Below are positions 3,728 to 25,389 of a DNA stretch of 64,000 nucleotides, in pieces. Made by a program: the position numbers and the translations under genes. The notes beneath the pieces are model-generated. The model made no database searches. It saw only the letters and a list, made by a program, of their open reading frames with translations, and was not told where the DNA came from. Each line of letters begins with the position of its first letter. The first letter of the stretch is position 1. The stretch lies in contig NZ_BCWW01000001.1 in the NCBI RefSeq assembly GCF_001894785.1, positions 992,001 through 1,056,000 on the forward strand. Reading direction: 5' to 3'. Source of the DNA: Rhodococcoides fascians NBRC 12155 = LMG 3623 (GTDB lineage: Bacteria > Actinomycetota > Actinomycetes > Mycobacteriales > Mycobacteriaceae).

Positions 3728-5080
<1,353 letters not shown>

Positions 5081-5095
5081 CCGAACCCGTCACCG

Positions 5096-5129
5096 AAAAG
5101 CCCCGAGGCACTCTGCTTCGGGGCTTTTT
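5096..5129 (+). terminator. Rho-independent terminator of purA
   Basis: The sequence AAAAGCCCCGAGGC is followed by a short loop and GCTTCGGGGCTTTTT. It forms an 11-bp GC-rich stem whose 3' arm runs into five T residues, 16 bases after the purA stop codon. Confidence 0.9.
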
Positions 5130-5493
5130 GCTGTCTCCGTGCGGACCGATAGACCCAGGATCGTCTGTGTCGATGAAACAGGCTGCGCTCTCGTAGACCG
5201 GCTGTAAACAACCATTCCGACGGGTATTCGCCTCAAAACGGCCGAGGTTAGGTGTCCGATTCGACCGATTCCGGATAGGGCTCCGCTTTACAGATGATTG
5301 CGACATGTAAACGCAGAGTTCGAAACGAGCGGCCGAAAAGACTCCTGGACTTTTACTCTCACTTGGGTAACAGGCCAGGTAGACGTGGCGAAACAATGAG
5401 CATCGCACCAATTGCGGAGGCCTCTTCGGATGGCCGACGATCCGATCGGATCACCCCCCTCGGCCAATGAGGCCACCGAAGAAAGTAGAACGA
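5130..5493. other. Intergenic region upstream of the SipW-type operon
   Basis: 364 bases without a convincing gene. It is less GC-rich by eye than its surroundings. It contains an inverted repeat TTTACA (5287-5292) / TGTAAA (5306-5311) with 13 bases between, and a further TGTAAA at 5203-5208, which could be sites for a regulator of the operon that begins at 5494. No clear -35/-10 pair or riboswitch is recognised. Short ORFs here lack ribosome-binding sites and family likeness. Confidence 0.4.
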
Positions 5494-6045
5494 ATGAACA
5501 AGGCAACCAAGGGTGCACTCGCCGGTGGTGCAGCGGTAGTGCTGCTGCTGGGCGGCGCGGGCTCGTATGCGCTGTGGAGTGACACCGAGACGATCGCCGG
5601 TGGCGGTGCAATTTCGACGGGCATTTTGAAGCTGGAGCCAGTGGGAGTCGGGACTTGGACCGACATTTCCCCGAGTGCCCCTGTTACTCCCGGCGATCTG
5701 GATATCGCGGCGTTCAACATGGTGCCGGGCGACGTCTTGGCCTACGACGTGACGTTTCGTGTAGACGCCGAAGGCGACAATTTGCAAGCGACTTTGATTC
5801 CGAACCAGGCATCGATCACCTACGGTGCCGGCGTCACCGCGAGTGAAATTACGGTGGCAACAGACACCCGGGACGCTGGCACTGGAGCGGCCATCCCTCC
5901 GCTCCTGACCGAAGCCAACGACGGCCAAGAGATCGACGTTCGGGTTGTGGTCACCTTCAATGCAGGCACGACTACGAACGTCGGTCAGAACTCGTCCGTC
6001 AACTTGGCCGGGTTTCAGGTCGTGCTCCAGCAAACTCGTGCATGA
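5494..6045 (+). CDS. SipW-type exported protein (TasA-like cargo 1, RER_14450-like family)
   Basis: A 183-residue secreted protein. Residues 8-23 form a hydrophobic signal segment ending GGAGSYALWSD, the alternate signal-peptide pattern cut by SipW-type signal peptidases; such actinobacterial proteins are known as alternate signal-mediated exported proteins (RER_14450 family). Right after the cut the mature protein has ISTGILKL, a strand motif repeated in the two sister proteins downstream. The rest is predicted beta-rich, like TasA/camelysin fibre subunits, without Cys. The ATG at 5494 is preferred over the upstream ATG at 5467 because it starts with the Lys-containing signal peptide. First gene of a five-gene operon that includes two signal peptidases. 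Surface fibre or matrix function is inferred. Confidence 0.8.
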   Translation: MNKATKGALAGGAAVVLLLGGAGSYALWSDTETIAGGGAISTGILKLEPVGVGTWTDISPSAPVTPGDLDIAAFNMVPGDVLAYDVTFRVDAEGDNLQATLIPNQASITYGAGVTASEITVATDTRDAGTGAAIPPLLTEANDGQEIDVRVVVTFNAGTTTNVGQNSSVNLAGFQVVLQQTRA

Positions 6046-6075
6046 TCCGGTCGTCTGCCTGACTTGACGCTGAGA

Positions 6076-6672
6076 ATGACCTCCAACCGGAAGCTTGTCG
6101 GAGCGGCTCTTGCGATCGCGGTGACTGTGCTGGCCCTCGGGTCGGTGCAGTCCACCGCGGCTTTGTGGCGCACCGATGCGACCGTGCCGGGGACGGGGCC
6201 GGTGAATACGGGCACGCTGGTGCTGACGGCGGGTTCCGGCGGGTCGACGCAGTCGACTTCTTTCCAATTCGACGAGCTGAAGCCGTCAGGCTTGATTCAA
6301 ACGGGTGACTTCGTTCAGCGGCCCTTGATCATTGCCAATGGAGGGACAATCCCCCTGAAGTTTCGCTTGGGCACAGTCGGGGTTCCGTCGTCGTCTGCGG
6401 GAATTGCCACGGTCCATGTCGACGCTCGACGAGTTGAGTCGACTGCGGACTGTCCGACGACCGGCTCGGTACCTGGCGGCGTCGCCACGCTTGCTGATGT
6501 CAGCGTACAAACCAAGGGCTCAGCCAGTGGGGTAGCGGGTTGGACCAATATCCCACGCAATACCAGCGCCACGGTGTGTATTCGCTCGACCTTGCTCGTT
6601 GCACCCGCGGCGGCTGTGGCGTATCGGCATGTGTTCACCTTCGATGCCCAGCAACTGAAGAACAACCCATGA
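6076..6672 (+). CDS. SipW-type exported protein (cargo 2)
   Basis: A 198-residue secreted protein with hydrophobic residues 7-24, then STAALWRTD, the same ALW signature as in cargo 1, and the post-cleavage strand VNTGTLVL. The mature part is beta-rich (IIANGGTIPLKFRLGTVGV) with two Cys (TADCPTT and ATVCIRS) that could form one disulfide outside the cell. The ATG at 6076 gives a Lys/Arg-starting signal peptide; a TTG at 6064 is an alternative start. Its stop overlaps the start of the signal peptidase gene (ATGA), so cargo and peptidase are translated together. Confidence 0.75.
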   Translation: MTSNRKLVGAALAIAVTVLALGSVQSTAALWRTDATVPGTGPVNTGTLVLTAGSGGSTQSTSFQFDELKPSGLIQTGDFVQRPLIIANGGTIPLKFRLGTVGVPSSSAGIATVHVDARRVESTADCPTTGSVPGGVATLADVSVQTKGSASGVAGWTNIPRNTSATVCIRSTLLVAPAAAVAYRHVFTFDAQQLKNNP

Positions 6673-7244
6673 CATCAGTAGGCGAGCACAGAGCAGCCAG
6701 TAAATCTACCGGCGTCCGTTGGTGGATAGGACATGTGCTGTCGTGGACAGCGCTGTTATTCGTCGTTGCTGTACTTTTGGCTTCGATCGTGGTTCCCAAG
6801 TTGGGTAACGCGATGCCCCTCACCGTCTTGACGTCGTCGATGGAGCCGACGTACCCGCCGGGAACGCTGATAGTCGTCCGACAGACCGATGTAGAAAATC
6901 TGGGTGTCGGCGAGGCAATTACCTATCAGATCAAATCGGGTGAACCGGGTGTGATAACCCACCGCATTGTCGGCACCACGTTCGACAAGGACGGGAAGCA
7001 GCTTTACATCACGCAGGGCGACAACAATTCTGCTCCTGATCAGGACCCGGTGAGGCCCGTCCAGGTTCGCGGAACAGTGTGGTACAGCATCCCGTACTTG
7101 GGATATGTGAACAACTGGATCACAGGTGAGCGTCGGTCGGTGTTCGTCGGCGTCGTCGTCGCTGGATTACTCGCTTTCGCTCTGTATCAATTCGTCGGAG
7201 CCGGCCTCGACAGTAAACGAGCCAGAAAGAAGACCGATCTCTGA
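6669..7244 (+). CDS. Signal peptidase I, SipW/archaeal (ER) type
   Basis: A 191-residue membrane peptidase. One membrane helix (about 20-45) precedes the catalytic Ser in LTSSMEP (Ser57). The second box is GVITHRIVG, with His98 where bacterial enzymes of the usual type have Lys, and the third is ITQGDNNSAPD with Asp118. Ser-His-Asp is the hallmark of the SipW/archaeal/ER branch of family S26. A second membrane helix lies near residues 157-178, followed by a basic tail. It overlaps the cargo-2 stop by 4 bases and the next cargo start by 1 base, so it very probably processes the neighbouring ALW-type signal peptides. Confidence 0.88.
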   Translation: MTSVGEHRAASKSTGVRWWIGHVLSWTALLFVVAVLLASIVVPKLGNAMPLTVLTSSMEPTYPPGTLIVVRQTDVENLGVGEAITYQIKSGEPGVITHRIVGTTFDKDGKQLYITQGDNNSAPDQDPVRPVQVRGTVWYSIPYLGYVNNWITGERRSVFVGVVVAGLLAFALYQFVGAGLDSKRARKKTDL

Positions 7245-7870
7245 TGGGCGCGCATGCGGTTCCCACAACGCTTTTCGCACGCGTACTGCGCCTCGTAGGA
7301 AGTGCGCGGGTTCGCGCGTTGCTGTCGCTTGGAATGGTGCTGGGGTTGGGTGCCGTCGGAACTCTCGCAGTGTGGTCGACAAGTGCCACGGCAACATCTG
7401 GTGAGTTCGCCACCGGATCGGTCGACATTCGACTCGACGGCAGTGAAGGTCCTGTGACGCAACCTTACGAATTCGCGCTCGCGCCAACGTCACTCCTGCC
7501 CGGTAATAGCACGGCGGCCGTCATAGCGGTACAAAACCGTGGAAGCCTCCCGTTCCGGTACGGCGTCTCCGTCGTCGGGTCCGGCTCGCTGTCTTCTGTG
7601 CTTACGGTGTCGGCGATGCCATCGGGATCCGTGTTCACGAACGGATCCAACAAAACGTGCACCGGCGGTACTGCACAGACTGCTGTAGTCCCCAGTGCTA
7701 GTTCAGCAGTGATGGTTCCGAATGCATCGGTTGGGCCCGTCGCCGCTACGACAGGCAACGCGAATCTTTGTATTCAGGCTACCTTGTCATCCGGCGCGGC
7801 CGCCAATCTGCAAGGTACGCAAGCGAATTTGACGCTACTGTTCACAGCGACTGGAGCGACCGGTGTCTAA
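7244..7870 (+). CDS. SipW-type exported protein (cargo 3)
   Basis: A 208-residue secreted protein. It has a longer basic N-terminus, then a hydrophobic stretch around residues 25-42 ending GTLAVWSTSATATSG, a variant of the ALW(S/R) signature, and the post-cleavage strand FATGSVDI. The mature part is Ser/Thr/Val-rich and beta-like with two Cys (NKTCTGG, NLCIQA). Start codon overlaps the stop of the peptidase gene (TGATG), and its end overlaps the next gene by 8 bases. Inferred to be a surface subunit related to cargo 1 and 2. Confidence 0.72.
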   Translation: MGAHAVPTTLFARVLRLVGSARVRALLSLGMVLGLGAVGTLAVWSTSATATSGEFATGSVDIRLDGSEGPVTQPYEFALAPTSLLPGNSTAAVIAVQNRGSLPFRYGVSVVGSGSLSSVLTVSAMPSGSVFTNGSNKTCTGGTAQTAVVPSASSAVMVPNASVGPVAATTGNANLCIQATLSSGAAANLQGTQANLTLLFTATGATGV

Positions 7871-9398
7871 CACATCGACGACACCCTTGGGGACGCTTCG
7901 CGAGCTCGCACTGTCTGTTGGGGCGGTCATGGGGCTGCTCTGTATTTCTGCCAGCATGTGCGCCGTCTTTTTCGCTGTGACTCCGCTTGTATTCAGGTCG
8001 GGTTCGATGGCACCAGCCATCGACACCGGGTCCGTCGCGCTGGCTCGAATGGTCCCAGCTGCTGAATTACAGGTCGGCGACGTCGTGAGTGTAGATCTTG
8101 CGGACGGGACGAAGATAACCCACCGCATCACCGAGATCGTTGGCCTCGTTGGCAATTCCGCAGAGCTCGTGCTCAAGGGCGACGCAAACGATGTCGTTGA
8201 TCCGGAGACCTATGTGGTCACCGAAGCGCAGCGTGTATTTGCAGACGTTCCGTACGCCGGCTATTTCGTCTCATGGCTCAGCACGCCCTTTGCGTGGGGA
8301 ATCGGTGCAGTGCTGTCGACTTCGCTGATTGCGATCGCCTGGCAGCCGAGCGAGCGCAAGAATGAGCGGCCCAGACACTCGTCCGGAAAGCACGTGGCCG
8401 TGTCTTCTGTTGCAATTGTCACGGTGGCCGCGACTGTGACCGGGGTGGGTGTCTCACGAAGTGAGATGACCCTGGCGGCTAGCACTGATGTTGCCTACGC
8501 CACGACGACACTGACAGCTGGAACTGTCGCGCTGCCCGCAAGTTTTACATGCGAGGGCGGTGGACTTTTGACTCCCGTCACCTTCAAATGGCCGAATACA
8601 AATGCCGCGTACACCTATACCCTTGACTTCGGCCCGGTCGGTGGGTCTCCCGTAGCTCAATTCGAGGTTGCGCCTTCGGCAGTGAACCCATCGACTTTCA
8701 GCTCGGCCAGCATTGGTGGCCTCTTGGCCCTTGGTACTTACCAACTGACGTTGAAAGCAAAAGTAGGAACCTTCTTGGCCACAGGCTCACGCACGCATAC
8801 GTTCTCCCGTCTCAATCTCGTGCTCGGTGTGACCAGCAGTTGCGGATCTCCATCGTCCACCACCGCGGGCGTCGCTGCCCGAAGTGCTCCCGCCCCAGCG
8901 ACGCCGACAACCGAATCCGTGCCACCGGTCACATCGACAACGGTCGCAACTGTTCCTCTGACGACGACTACGACTGTTCCTCCGACCACGACAACGACCG
9001 CACCCCCGACTACCACGACGACTGTTCCTCCGACTACAACGACCACGACCGTCCCGGTACCTCCGCCGCCGGTAACGACAACCACGACCGCACCCGTGGC
9101 GCTTGCGTCCCCGCAGACGTCCCCATCCGGCACATCGACTGCTCAGGTTGTCGACATCGACGGCTCTCCGACGCTGCAGATCGTCGACACCGCAGGCATC
9201 GTTCAGTACAGCGCTCCTGCTACCTCCAGCGAGGCGTACGGCTATGGCGTCAACTGGGCGGCCGGGGATCAGCTGTGGTTGCTCGGACCGGATCAGTTGG
9301 TTCGGCTGGACGCGTCGGGTGGAAGCTGGTCTCGAACGGTGGTCGACCCCGCAGCGACGGATGAGATCCCCGCCGAGATTCTCGCCCTTCTCCAATAG
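7863..9398 (+). CDS. Signal peptidase I (SipW type) fused to an exported cargo-like region
   Basis: A 511-residue multidomain protein. Residues 1-160 are a complete SipW-type signal peptidase: membrane helix about 16-40, catalytic Ser48 (FRSGSMAP), His87 (KITHRI), Asp107 (LKGDAND) and a C-terminal helix about 139-160. A second hydrophobic segment (178-197) is followed by SEMTLAASTDVAYATTTLTAGTVAL split here as a cargo-like start with LTAGTVAL, then a beta-sandwich-like region (about 220-330) with two Cys. Next comes a low-complexity Thr/Pro linker (about 355-415, repeats of TTTTTVPP) typical of wall-spanning or glycosylated stalks, and an acidic C-terminal domain ending PAEILALLQ. GTG start; 8-base overlap with cargo 3. 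It may tether or cleave its own cargo domain; this is inference. Confidence 0.8.
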   Translation: MSNTSTTPLGTLRELALSVGAVMGLLCISASMCAVFFAVTPLVFRSGSMAPAIDTGSVALARMVPAAELQVGDVVSVDLADGTKITHRITEIVGLVGNSAELVLKGDANDVVDPETYVVTEAQRVFADVPYAGYFVSWLSTPFAWGIGAVLSTSLIAIAWQPSERKNERPRHSSGKHVAVSSVAIVTVAATVTGVGVSRSEMTLAASTDVAYATTTLTAGTVALPASFTCEGGGLLTPVTFKWPNTNAAYTYTLDFGPVGGSPVAQFEVAPSAVNPSTFSSASIGGLLALGTYQLTLKAKVGTFLATGSRTHTFSRLNLVLGVTSSCGSPSSTTAGVAARSAPAPATPTTESVPPVTSTTVATVPLTTTTTVPPTTTTTAPPTTTTTVPPTTTTTTVPVPPPPVTTTTTAPVALASPQTSPSGTSTAQVVDIDGSPTLQIVDTAGIVQYSAPATSSEAYGYGVNWAAGDQLWLLGPDQLVRLDASGGSWSRTVVDPAATDEIPAEILALLQ

Positions 9399-9488
9399 CG
9401 CAGACGTCACATATATCTCCGAATCGAAGTGCGCGTCTACGAATCGGGTGGATAATCGAGGCCAAGTAAAGCGACGGAGGGCCGGTCG

Positions 9489-9929
9489 ATGACTGAAAAT
9501 TACAATGGCTTGGAAGTTTTCAGCTACCAATTCGATCGGTTTGCTTACGAACACTCGTGGATCGGGGCGCAGACTGGCGAATTCATGCTCGGTCCGCAAG
9601 GGGGCGGCATGTTGGAGTTCACCCACGCGATGGTGTTCGCCCTCCCCGAGGGTGGTGCGCACGAAGTACACGGACCCATCCTGGAGTGGTACCTCTCGCA
9701 CGGCGGACCCTATGGCGCACTTGGCTATCCGATCAGCAACGAGCGCCCGACGCCCACCGGTTCCGGACGCTACAACCTGTTCCAGCGCGGAGCGATCGGC
9801 TGGCTTCCGGATACGGGCGCATTCACCATCGGCGGTAGAGAAGAGGATTCTGATGTCAGTCCGGGTCCCGACGCCGCGACGGTCTCCGTTGTCGACGCCT
9901 CGATGTCTTCGGCCGGCATACCTGGCTGA
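9489..9929 (+). CDS. LGFP-repeat protein
   Basis: A 146-residue protein with LGFP-type repeats, clearest at GALGYPISNERPTPTGSGRY followed by NLFQRGAIGW and a weaker upstream copy (ILEWYLSHGG). LGFP repeats are found in mycolyltransferases and wall-associated proteins of mycolic-acid actinobacteria and are thought to bind the cell wall. No signal peptide or membrane segment is visible, which is unusual for a wall protein; it may be cytoplasmic or exported by another route. The ATG at 9489 follows GGAGGG. It lies 90 bases after the signal-peptidase fusion and could be a distal member of that operon. Confidence 0.7.
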   Translation: MTENYNGLEVFSYQFDRFAYEHSWIGAQTGEFMLGPQGGGMLEFTHAMVFALPEGGAHEVHGPILEWYLSHGGPYGALGYPISNERPTPTGSGRYNLFQRGAIGWLPDTGAFTIGGREEDSDVSPGPDAATVSVVDASMSSAGIPG

Positions 9930-10000
9930 AAAGCCAACTTCAGTCCTGTTTTTTATCGCTTTATTCGGTCGAGAAGTATCTTCAGCGATTGCCGATGAAT

Positions 10001-10525
10001 TCAGAACAGCGTCGGCTCGTCGAATCCGGCGACGCCTTCGATGCCGAGAATTCGTTGTTTCGTATTCGCCCCGCCGGGAGCGGAGAAGCCGCCTACCTCT
10101 CGGCCCGCGCCCAGCACGCGATGACACGGAACGATGATCGGTACCGGGTTTCGGCCCAGTGCCCCGCCCACCGCCTGGGCCGCGCCCGGCAGCCCGAGAC
10201 GACGCGCGATGTCTCCGTACGTCAGCGTTGCGCCCCGGGGAATCGCGCTGCACACGGTGTAGACCGAGGCGTCGAACGCCGAAACCTCGAGCACCAACGG
10301 GATCGGGCTCATGTCCACGGCGCGCCCGGCGAGGAGCGCCACGATTCGATCGATCGCGTCCTCGGCGAGAGCGTCGACCGGACCTAGGTCAGCGGCGAAG
10401 CCGGCCAGGTAATCGAGCATCGCCTCGTCCGACGGCTCGGGTAGTGCCACGGCCATCACGCCGTCCGCGCTCCAGGCAAGACCGCATCGCCCGATGGCCG
10501 TGTCGAAGAGGGTGCTGCTCGGCAT
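10001..10525 (-). CDS. ogt: Methylated-DNA--protein-cysteine methyltransferase
   Basis: A 174-residue suicide DNA-repair protein that takes the methyl group from O6-methylguanine onto its own cysteine. The active-site motif PCHRV is present (residues 133-137, IIVPCHRVLGAG), along with TLTYGDIARRLGLPGAAQAVG, the helix-turn-helix that binds DNA. Length matches Ogt. The ATG at 10525 gives the usual short N-terminus MPSSTLFDT. It is divergent from the MocR-type regulator gene, and the two share a short promoter region. Confidence 0.93.
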   Translation of the reverse strand: MPSSTLFDTAIGRCGLAWSADGVMAVALPEPSDEAMLDYLAGFAADLGPVDALAEDAIDRIVALLAGRAVDMSPIPLVLEVSAFDASVYTVCSAIPRGATLTYGDIARRLGLPGAAQAVGGALGRNPVPIIVPCHRVLGAGREVGGFSAPGGANTKQRILGIEGVAGFDEPTLF

Positions 10526-10555
10526 GGGTCGAGTATCCACCGGACGTCGACAGGC

Positions 10556-10600
10556 AGTCCAGTCGAACGCCCAATGGACTTGAAAGTTCGATGCCAGTGG
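10556..10600. promoter_or_regulatory. Repeats in the ogt/MocR divergent promoter
   Basis: The 90-base gap between the ogt and MocR starts holds an inverted repeat AGTCCA (10556-10561) / TGGACT (10575-10580) and a near-direct repeat CCAATGG (10571-10577) / CCAGTGG (10594-10600), spaced 23 bases apart. MocR-type regulators commonly bind direct repeats in their own divergent promoters, so these are candidate autoregulatory sites. The function is inferred. Confidence 0.4.
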
Positions 10601-25283: not shown

Positions 25284-25290
25284 CCTGTCA

Positions 25291-25378
25291 CCATCCAGAG
25301 CGACCGAGAGACCTTGGCTCGATGACGTCGCAGCAACCCCGCCTTACGGCGTGTGGGTGCTACCGCCAGGACCGATGG
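25291..25378 (+). promoter_or_regulatory. SAM riboswitch (S-box/SAM-I class)
   Basis: CCATC (25291-25295) pairs with GATGG (25374-25378) as P1. Inside lie CAGAGCGACCGAGAGACC, TTGGCTCGATGACGTCGCAG, CAACCC, and GGTGCTACCGCCAGG, the conserved S-box core (kink-turn, J3/4 and P4 elements). S-box RNAs bind S-adenosylmethionine and shut down sulfur genes. A nearly identical copy occurs at 32267. It could be classed as a SAM-I/IV variant; the compact size is typical of actinobacteria. A Cys leader peptide begins 11 bases after P1. Confidence 0.9.
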
Positions 25379-25389
25379 AGGCACGACCG

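Follow-up and report, generated by a model that had tools for sequence, protein, structure and literature searches.

The closest described counterparts of the locus considered here are the biofilm-fibre operons of Bacillus, namely, tapA-sipW-tasA of B. subtilis and sipW-calY1-bc_1280-calY2 of B. cereus (PMC13082335 for the latter, available in part), in which a SipW-type signal peptidase is likewise encoded in one operon with its cargo proteins. In B. subtilis, TasA is processed by SipW and carries Phe at P2′ (PMC10269814), its donor strand comprises residues 28–38 (PMC9674648), and the starter TapA, which combines an Ig domain with a TasA-like N-terminus, begins in its mature form with AFHDI, similar to the AFNDI of TasA (PMC10151520; all three sources available in part). 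In the available part of PMC10269814, none of 143 verified LepB substrates has an aromatic residue at P2′. The operon analyzed here occupies positions 5494–9398 of a 64,000-nucleotide stretch of Rhodococcoides fascians NBRC 12155 = LMG 3623 (contig NZ_BCWW01000001.1, positions 992,001–1,056,000; the whole stretch is hereafter called the window). It encodes three cargos, C1, C2, and C3, and two signal peptidases, P1 and P2, in the order C1-C2-P1-C3-P2, and is probably a self-contained system that exports TasA/camelysin-like beta-sandwich subunits and assembles them on the cell surface. Unlike the Bacillus operons, it has two peptidases and three cargos, one peptidase is fused to a fibronectin type III (FnIII) domain, a stalk, and a C-terminal domain, and loci of this type are exchanged between strains.

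All five genes lie on the forward strand, and the overlapping or closely spaced arrangement and coordinates reported for them in the earlier note were correct, with overlaps of 4 bases between C2 and P1, 1 base between P1 and C3, and 8 bases between C3 and P2. C1 (5494–6045) encodes an exported protein of the RER_14450 type of 183 aa with a predicted cut, placed by alignment, after Ala26 (5569–5571). C2 (6064–6672) encodes 202 aa from a TTG codon at 6064, an ATG at 6076 also being possible, with a predicted cut after Ala33, whereas C3 (7244–7870) encodes 208 aa with a predicted cut after Ala42; C2 and C3 each contain a conserved Cys pair. The signals of C1, C2, and C3 end in SYA-LW, TAA-LW, and TLA-VW and are followed by the first strands ISTGIL, VNTGTL, and FATGSV, respectively. 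According to the alignment with TasA (TWA|AFND, PMC10269814, available in part), the predicted cut precedes LW or VW, so that Trp would occupy P2′ of the mature protein, in the same way as the cut of B. subtilis TasA leaves an aromatic residue at this position. The motifs of the signal end and first strand were as described previously, but the Trp residue, which had been assigned to the signal end, would fall in the mature protein.

Ala at the cut-site position P1 and Trp at P2′ were invariant in 44 of 44 C1, 44 of 44 C2, and 52 of 52 C3 homologues (140/140, counting all distinct proteins at the loci found), and thus this signature is not due to chance. The alignments, from which near-duplicates and second copies had been dropped by hand, comprised 36 of 44 C1, 33 of 42 C2, 35 of 52 C3, 27 of 45 P1, and 33 of 43 P2-fusion rows. 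In the search with the SipW-signal and RER_14450-type models proposed in the earlier note, C1 scored 143.8 bits against NCBIfam TIGR04089, which we take to be the family named RER_14450 (cut-off 60), and 22.3 bits against TIGR04088 (cut-off 19), C3 scored 21.8 bits against TIGR04088, and C2 remained below the cut-off of TIGR04089 with 24 bits. C1 is accordingly a member of both families and C3 of TIGR04088, and these two proteins were the only TIGR04088 matches in the source genome at E ≤ 1.

P1 (6669–7244) and P2 (7863–9398, 511 aa) scored 93.8 and 55.5 bits, respectively, against TIGR02228 of NCBIfam (cut-off 51.85), which places both in the SipW/ER-type S26B class. Residues Ser57, His98, and Asp118 of P1 were retained in 46 of 46 distinct homologues, corresponding to a Ser-His and not a Ser-Lys arrangement, and Asp124 was also invariant; in the peptidase part of P2 (7863–8372), Ser48, His87, and Asp107 were retained in 58 of 58 distinct P2-type peptidases, with Asp113 also invariant. 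The P1 profile matched SEC11A with an E-value of 8e-13, and the Ser-His pair is shared with SEC11 of the ER signal peptidase complex, from which the two proteins differ in that they are encoded in an operon with few cargos and that P2 carries an ectodomain. Against the Bacillus SipW model NF046067, both remained below the cut-off of 190 (75.3 and 49.4 bits for P1 and P2). By family model and residues, P1 and P2 are SipW/SEC11-type (Ser-His-Asp) signal peptidases of predicted activity, as had been proposed, and no other S26B peptidase over the cut-off was found in the source genome (5.77 Mb, 36 contigs), where a third match was weak (26.4 bits). Family models and conserved cut-site residues together bear out the description of three SipW-type cargos with two dedicated peptidases. 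In the proposed system, C1, C2, and C3 would be exported by Sec, and P1 and P2 would cut each cargo before its Leu/Val-Trp start, which is presumably handled poorly by the ordinary signal peptidase.

The C2 profile was homologous to that of C3 over its whole length (hhalign 99.2%, 163 columns). When the C3 profile was compared with 177,635 PDB sequences, the best four matches were AbpX, AbpX, TasA, and TasA, each of them weak (E-values of 0.049–0.44); AbpX of the archaeal bundling pili of Pyrobaculum belongs to another domain of life and shows only weak similarity. A TasA model was matched by 11 of 35 C3 homologues at E ≤ 0.1 (best 1.1e-4). Among 350,542 chains searched with Foldseek, the TasA fibre ranked first both for the predicted structure of C3 (E-value = 1e-4, prob 1.00) and for that of C1 (E-value = 4.4e-3, prob 0.99). 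These matches hint at a TasA-like beta-sandwich fold for C3 and, more weakly, for C1. Several results weigh against this interpretation: a second structure aligner was less decisive than Foldseek, 8aur (TasA) was missing among the best 50 VIA rows for C1, jelly-roll matches were common at the Z values observed, C1 aligned with C2 and C3 over little more than the signal and first strand, and C3 scored 13.1 bits against the Pfam camelysin family PF12389, under the cut-off of 22.5, which also sets it apart from the Bacillus systems. No match of C1 or C2 to PF12389 was found at E ≤ 1, and none over the cut-off was found genome-wide. With regard to the TasA-like cargo folds for which the earlier note proposed to look, the analysis yields hints for C3 and C1, with C1 the weaker case.

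The frequency of jelly-roll matches, the limited alignment of C1 with the other cargos, and an FnIII domain that varies like an adhesin would also suit individual SipW-processed beta-sandwich proteins, located at the surface or secreted, that stay unpolymerised, with the operon serving as a variable adhesin or decoy set. Such an explanation is regarded as unlikely, since the invariant Trp after the cut in all three cargos and the strand motif that follows it suit a shared strand-donating role, and Foldseek ranks TasA in its fibre form first for both C1 and C3. If subunits are assembled, as is preferred here, the cargos may be joined by donor-strand exchange into a filament.

Behind its peptidase part, P2 contains a further hydrophobic helix (assigned by eye, as were the other hydrophobic helices of P1 and P2), an internal cargo-like site with Ala205, and a donor-like segment, together spanning 8397–8522, followed by the FnIII ectodomain (8523–8864), a Thr/Pro-rich stalk recognized from sequence and alignment (8865–9122), and the C-terminal domain (9123–9398). 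The FnIII domain is established by profile similarity to solved FnIII domains: the ectodomain profile of 30 rows matched tenascin-R with an E-value of 8.5e-8 and FN3con with an E-value of 4.6e-6, and two Cys residues were invariant in these rows; Pfam FnIII matches of single P2 members were few and weak. Neither this domain nor the exchange of alleles described below had been noticed in the earlier note. The FnIII part has a cargo-like start, as TapA does (PMC10151520, available in part).

The cargo-like character of this start was assessed in the 33 aligned P2 fusions, where Ala205 was present in 33, Asp at P4′ in 24, and an aromatic residue at P2′ in 9. Among 58 distinct P2-type peptidases, 44 had Ala205 and the other 14 had a gap at this place. 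The low frequency of the aromatic residue, compared with Trp in all 140 cargos, and the short and weak match of the C3 profile to the segment (20 columns, probability 43%) would agree with a further helix that is a plain membrane anchor and not a signal, the fixed FnIII stalk then holding the peptidase in the wall or binding substrate. This remains quite plausible, if somewhat short of an even chance: the conservation of Ala205 and of Asp at P4′ argues against it, as does the segment in loci L034, L056, and L076, which has the layout of C3 itself (A|AWxDxxxATSGTFTT), and so does its 100% identity between loci L069 and L071, in which the following domain has been swapped. In the assembly model, the FnIII domain on its Thr/Pro stalk, with a cargo-like start behind a membrane helix, would likely form a membrane-held base, a starter, or an exposed tip. 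A more specific version, which is considered doubtful, makes P2 a peptidase-adhesin that processes itself: the FnIII tip would be released or held either by the peptidase part of P2 or by P1, the cargo-like start would plug the TasA-like filament as in TapA of Bacillus, and the tip and C1 would be swapped by recombination. Different strains would then have different types of filament encoded at a single chromosomal site, amounting to a variable surface organelle of actinobacteria that serves in recognition, in adhesion, or in evading phages or predators.

The conservation of the gene set in relatives was confirmed by a gene-neighbourhood survey: all 22 loci found by a P1 search of genome contigs held the five parts in the same order, except that C2 and P1 formed one open frame in L050, P2 was short in L039, and extra copies were present in L034 and L043. 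Named carriers of the full set belonged to Rhodococcus/Rhodococcoides, Williamsia, Gordonia, Nocardia, and Prescottella. In the genus, 29 of the 37 genomes examined carried the set or most of it, in 21 cases at the purA site; among these are L062, whose contig ends ahead of C1 and which was assigned from the flank on its right side, the rearranged L080, and L076, in which C2 was found in part. Homologues of C3 were detected in 126 of 301 genomes of the family (19 of 31 genera) and in 33 of 249 genomes of the order, and those of C1 in 7 of 396 genomes of the phylum. Ten extra stretches from outside the family were analyzed, eight from the same order chosen for C3 and two from the same class only chosen for C1, and none of them contained the full five-gene set, although parts may be missing from L148, a 4.1-kb contig. 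A P2-type peptidase accompanied C3 in seven of the eight loci (L156 was undecided) and FnIII in four; both C1 loci had P1-type peptidases, and L147 also had a weak C3-like gene. These partial sets, in which C1 occurs with P1-type and C3 mostly with P2-type peptidases, point to two modules, and in the model the operon unites a C1/P1-type with a C3/P2-type cargo-peptidase module. The suggestion of the earlier note that the structure crosses the mycolate layer was not supported: the full set fits mycolate genera, yet partial modules occur outside the family in genomes that may or may not belong to mycolate bearers. The sole apparent non-mycolate carrier among the named ones, L044 (recorded as Kitasatospora arboriphila NRRL B-24581), was not used as such, because it is almost certainly a mislabelled Williamsia: flanking stretches of 4.3 and 4.2 kb shared 91–95% identity with Williamsia muralis, and its rRNA-region DNA was 98.8% identical over 2.7 kb.

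A sixth gene, encoding about 165 aa with IRWVPGD and FHVFNDT motifs and without a clear SipW signal, was located between P1 and C3 in L053 (6619–7125) and in 18 other purA-site Rhodococcus loci; the operon of the window has no counterpart. It was rejected as a further subunit, with hhalign probabilities of 1.9% to C2 and 22% to C3 (15 of 19 copies) and only stray weak NCBIfam matches; a chaperone or a starter is possible. Downstream of the LGFP-repeat gene that follows the operon, L034, L076, and L089 contained a second pair of a C3-like gene and a P2-type peptidase gene, and in L084, L086, and L087 a P2-type peptidase alone was found there.

Among relatives, alleles of the operon are exchanged. 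From the 48 loci in which every part was present, 47 candidate pairs with similar flanks were obtained, and in 36 of these the flanks averaged at least 85% but below 99.7% identity; the pairs are not independent, since L042 and L071 represent a single genome, L043/L044 involves the mislabelled record, and a given locus often takes part in several pairs. Relative to the flanks, mean DNA identity in the 36 pairs changed by −18.9 points in C1, −13.3 in C2, −9.3 in P1, and −15.7 in C3; for the parts of P2, cut at fixed residue numbers, the values were −12.4 for the peptidase, −21.3 for the internal signal, −22.1 for FnIII, which is hypervariable between relatives, and −5.2 for the C-terminal part. 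The least identical part was the internal signal in 14 pairs, FnIII in 12, C1 in 7, C3 in 2, and the P2 peptidase in 1. Exceptions were L072/L073, with 92–99% throughout, and L058/L060 and some others, which kept FnIII at 90% or more; in L038/L039, one P2 lacked most of the ectodomain. In L069/L071, flank identity was 99% and FnIII identity 63%, with the 20 codons before FnIII identical, and this step points to recombination. Between L068 and L071, the region from C1 to the P2 peptidase was 89–99% identical in 300-base windows and most flank windows were 68–91% identical, a pattern suggesting that the greater part of the operon has passed from one lineage to another. The ratio of nonsynonymous to synonymous substitution rates (dN/dS) in eleven chosen close pairs was mostly 0.05–0.4 and below 0.5 in most gene pairs, with higher values for C2 (0.78) and P2 (0.51) of L069/L071, C1 of L075/L077 (0.77), and C2, partial, of L034/L076 (0.55). 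Mobile carriage was considered and rejected: operon DNA had no match in the plasmid collection, the P1-like proteins found on 18 plasmids were distant (none covering 80% of the query, all below 60% identity), and C3 had no match in the phage collection. The locus seems to have been swapped between relatives at one chromosomal place.

The operon of the window itself probably has a composite origin. Compared with purA-site relatives, PurA was 99%, MocR 97%, LGFP 88%, and the resident-type C-terminal part of P2 up to 87% identical, whereas C1, C2, P1, C3, and the P2 peptidase had their best matches, at 42–61% identity, in the operons carried by R. kyotonense, R. trifolii, and strains of the Leaf247 type, in whose fetched stretches no purA was found. 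At the DNA level, seven purA-site relatives showed 83–86% identity in the flanks, 46–62% in the operon up to FnIII, and 73–80% in the C-terminal part. In the P1 tree of 45 rows, the window fell together with 16 rows from outside the purA site (98/98), and the remaining 20 rows from that site clustered as a single group (99/98). With four proteins joined (42 rows, leaving out L043, L080, and duplicates), a single purA-site group was rejected by the approximately unbiased (AU) test (p-AU 6e-5), which was chosen after the identities had been seen and was applied to a tree where the window has a long branch. The best reading is that an operon of foreign origin took the place of the resident one in the lineage of the window, leaving P2 as a chimera. 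The long branch and a tree that gives no direction would also accommodate an old allele or paralogue retained in the window, with the copy of the relatives replaced; this is rather improbable, as all but one of the 21 purA-site rows group together and the C-terminus of P2 is of resident type, so that replacement in the window lineage is simpler. In L083 (site at 8373–8719), purA, LGFP, and MocR are present without the operon but with a 27-residue trace of the end of P2, which shows that the set can be lost. On the upstream side of the window's operon, a terminator-like site follows purA (5111–5123), and on the downstream side, a second one (9924–9945) overlaps the end of the LGFP-repeat gene (7 such sites in the scan, 3.8 expected). 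A sigma-70 consensus scan of 5000–10600 revealed no promoter-like sites, and an Rfam scan of 1–30000 revealed no RNA element at the operon, the sole match being a SAM riboswitch at 25288–25381 (RF00162, 54.8 bits).

The earlier claim that such a system had not been described stands in part. TIGR04088 and TIGR04089 already name the signals and one cargo type, with C2, the P2 ectodomain, and the exchange outside their coverage; among the titles and abstract openings from full-text literature searches, two of which showed 15 of 211 and 10 of 4,611 matches and for which most subscription journals lie outside the coverage, no description of such a system in actinobacteria was found. If the proposed system is real, TasA-type donor-strand filaments would also exist in Rhodococcus, Gordonia, Williamsia, and Nocardia, and their version would rely on two peptidases and have a variable tip. 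The operon offers a simple case of peptidase-cargo pairing; in addition, these genera would gain a system for adhesion or biofilm formation, and the strong exchange at this surface locus would be accounted for.

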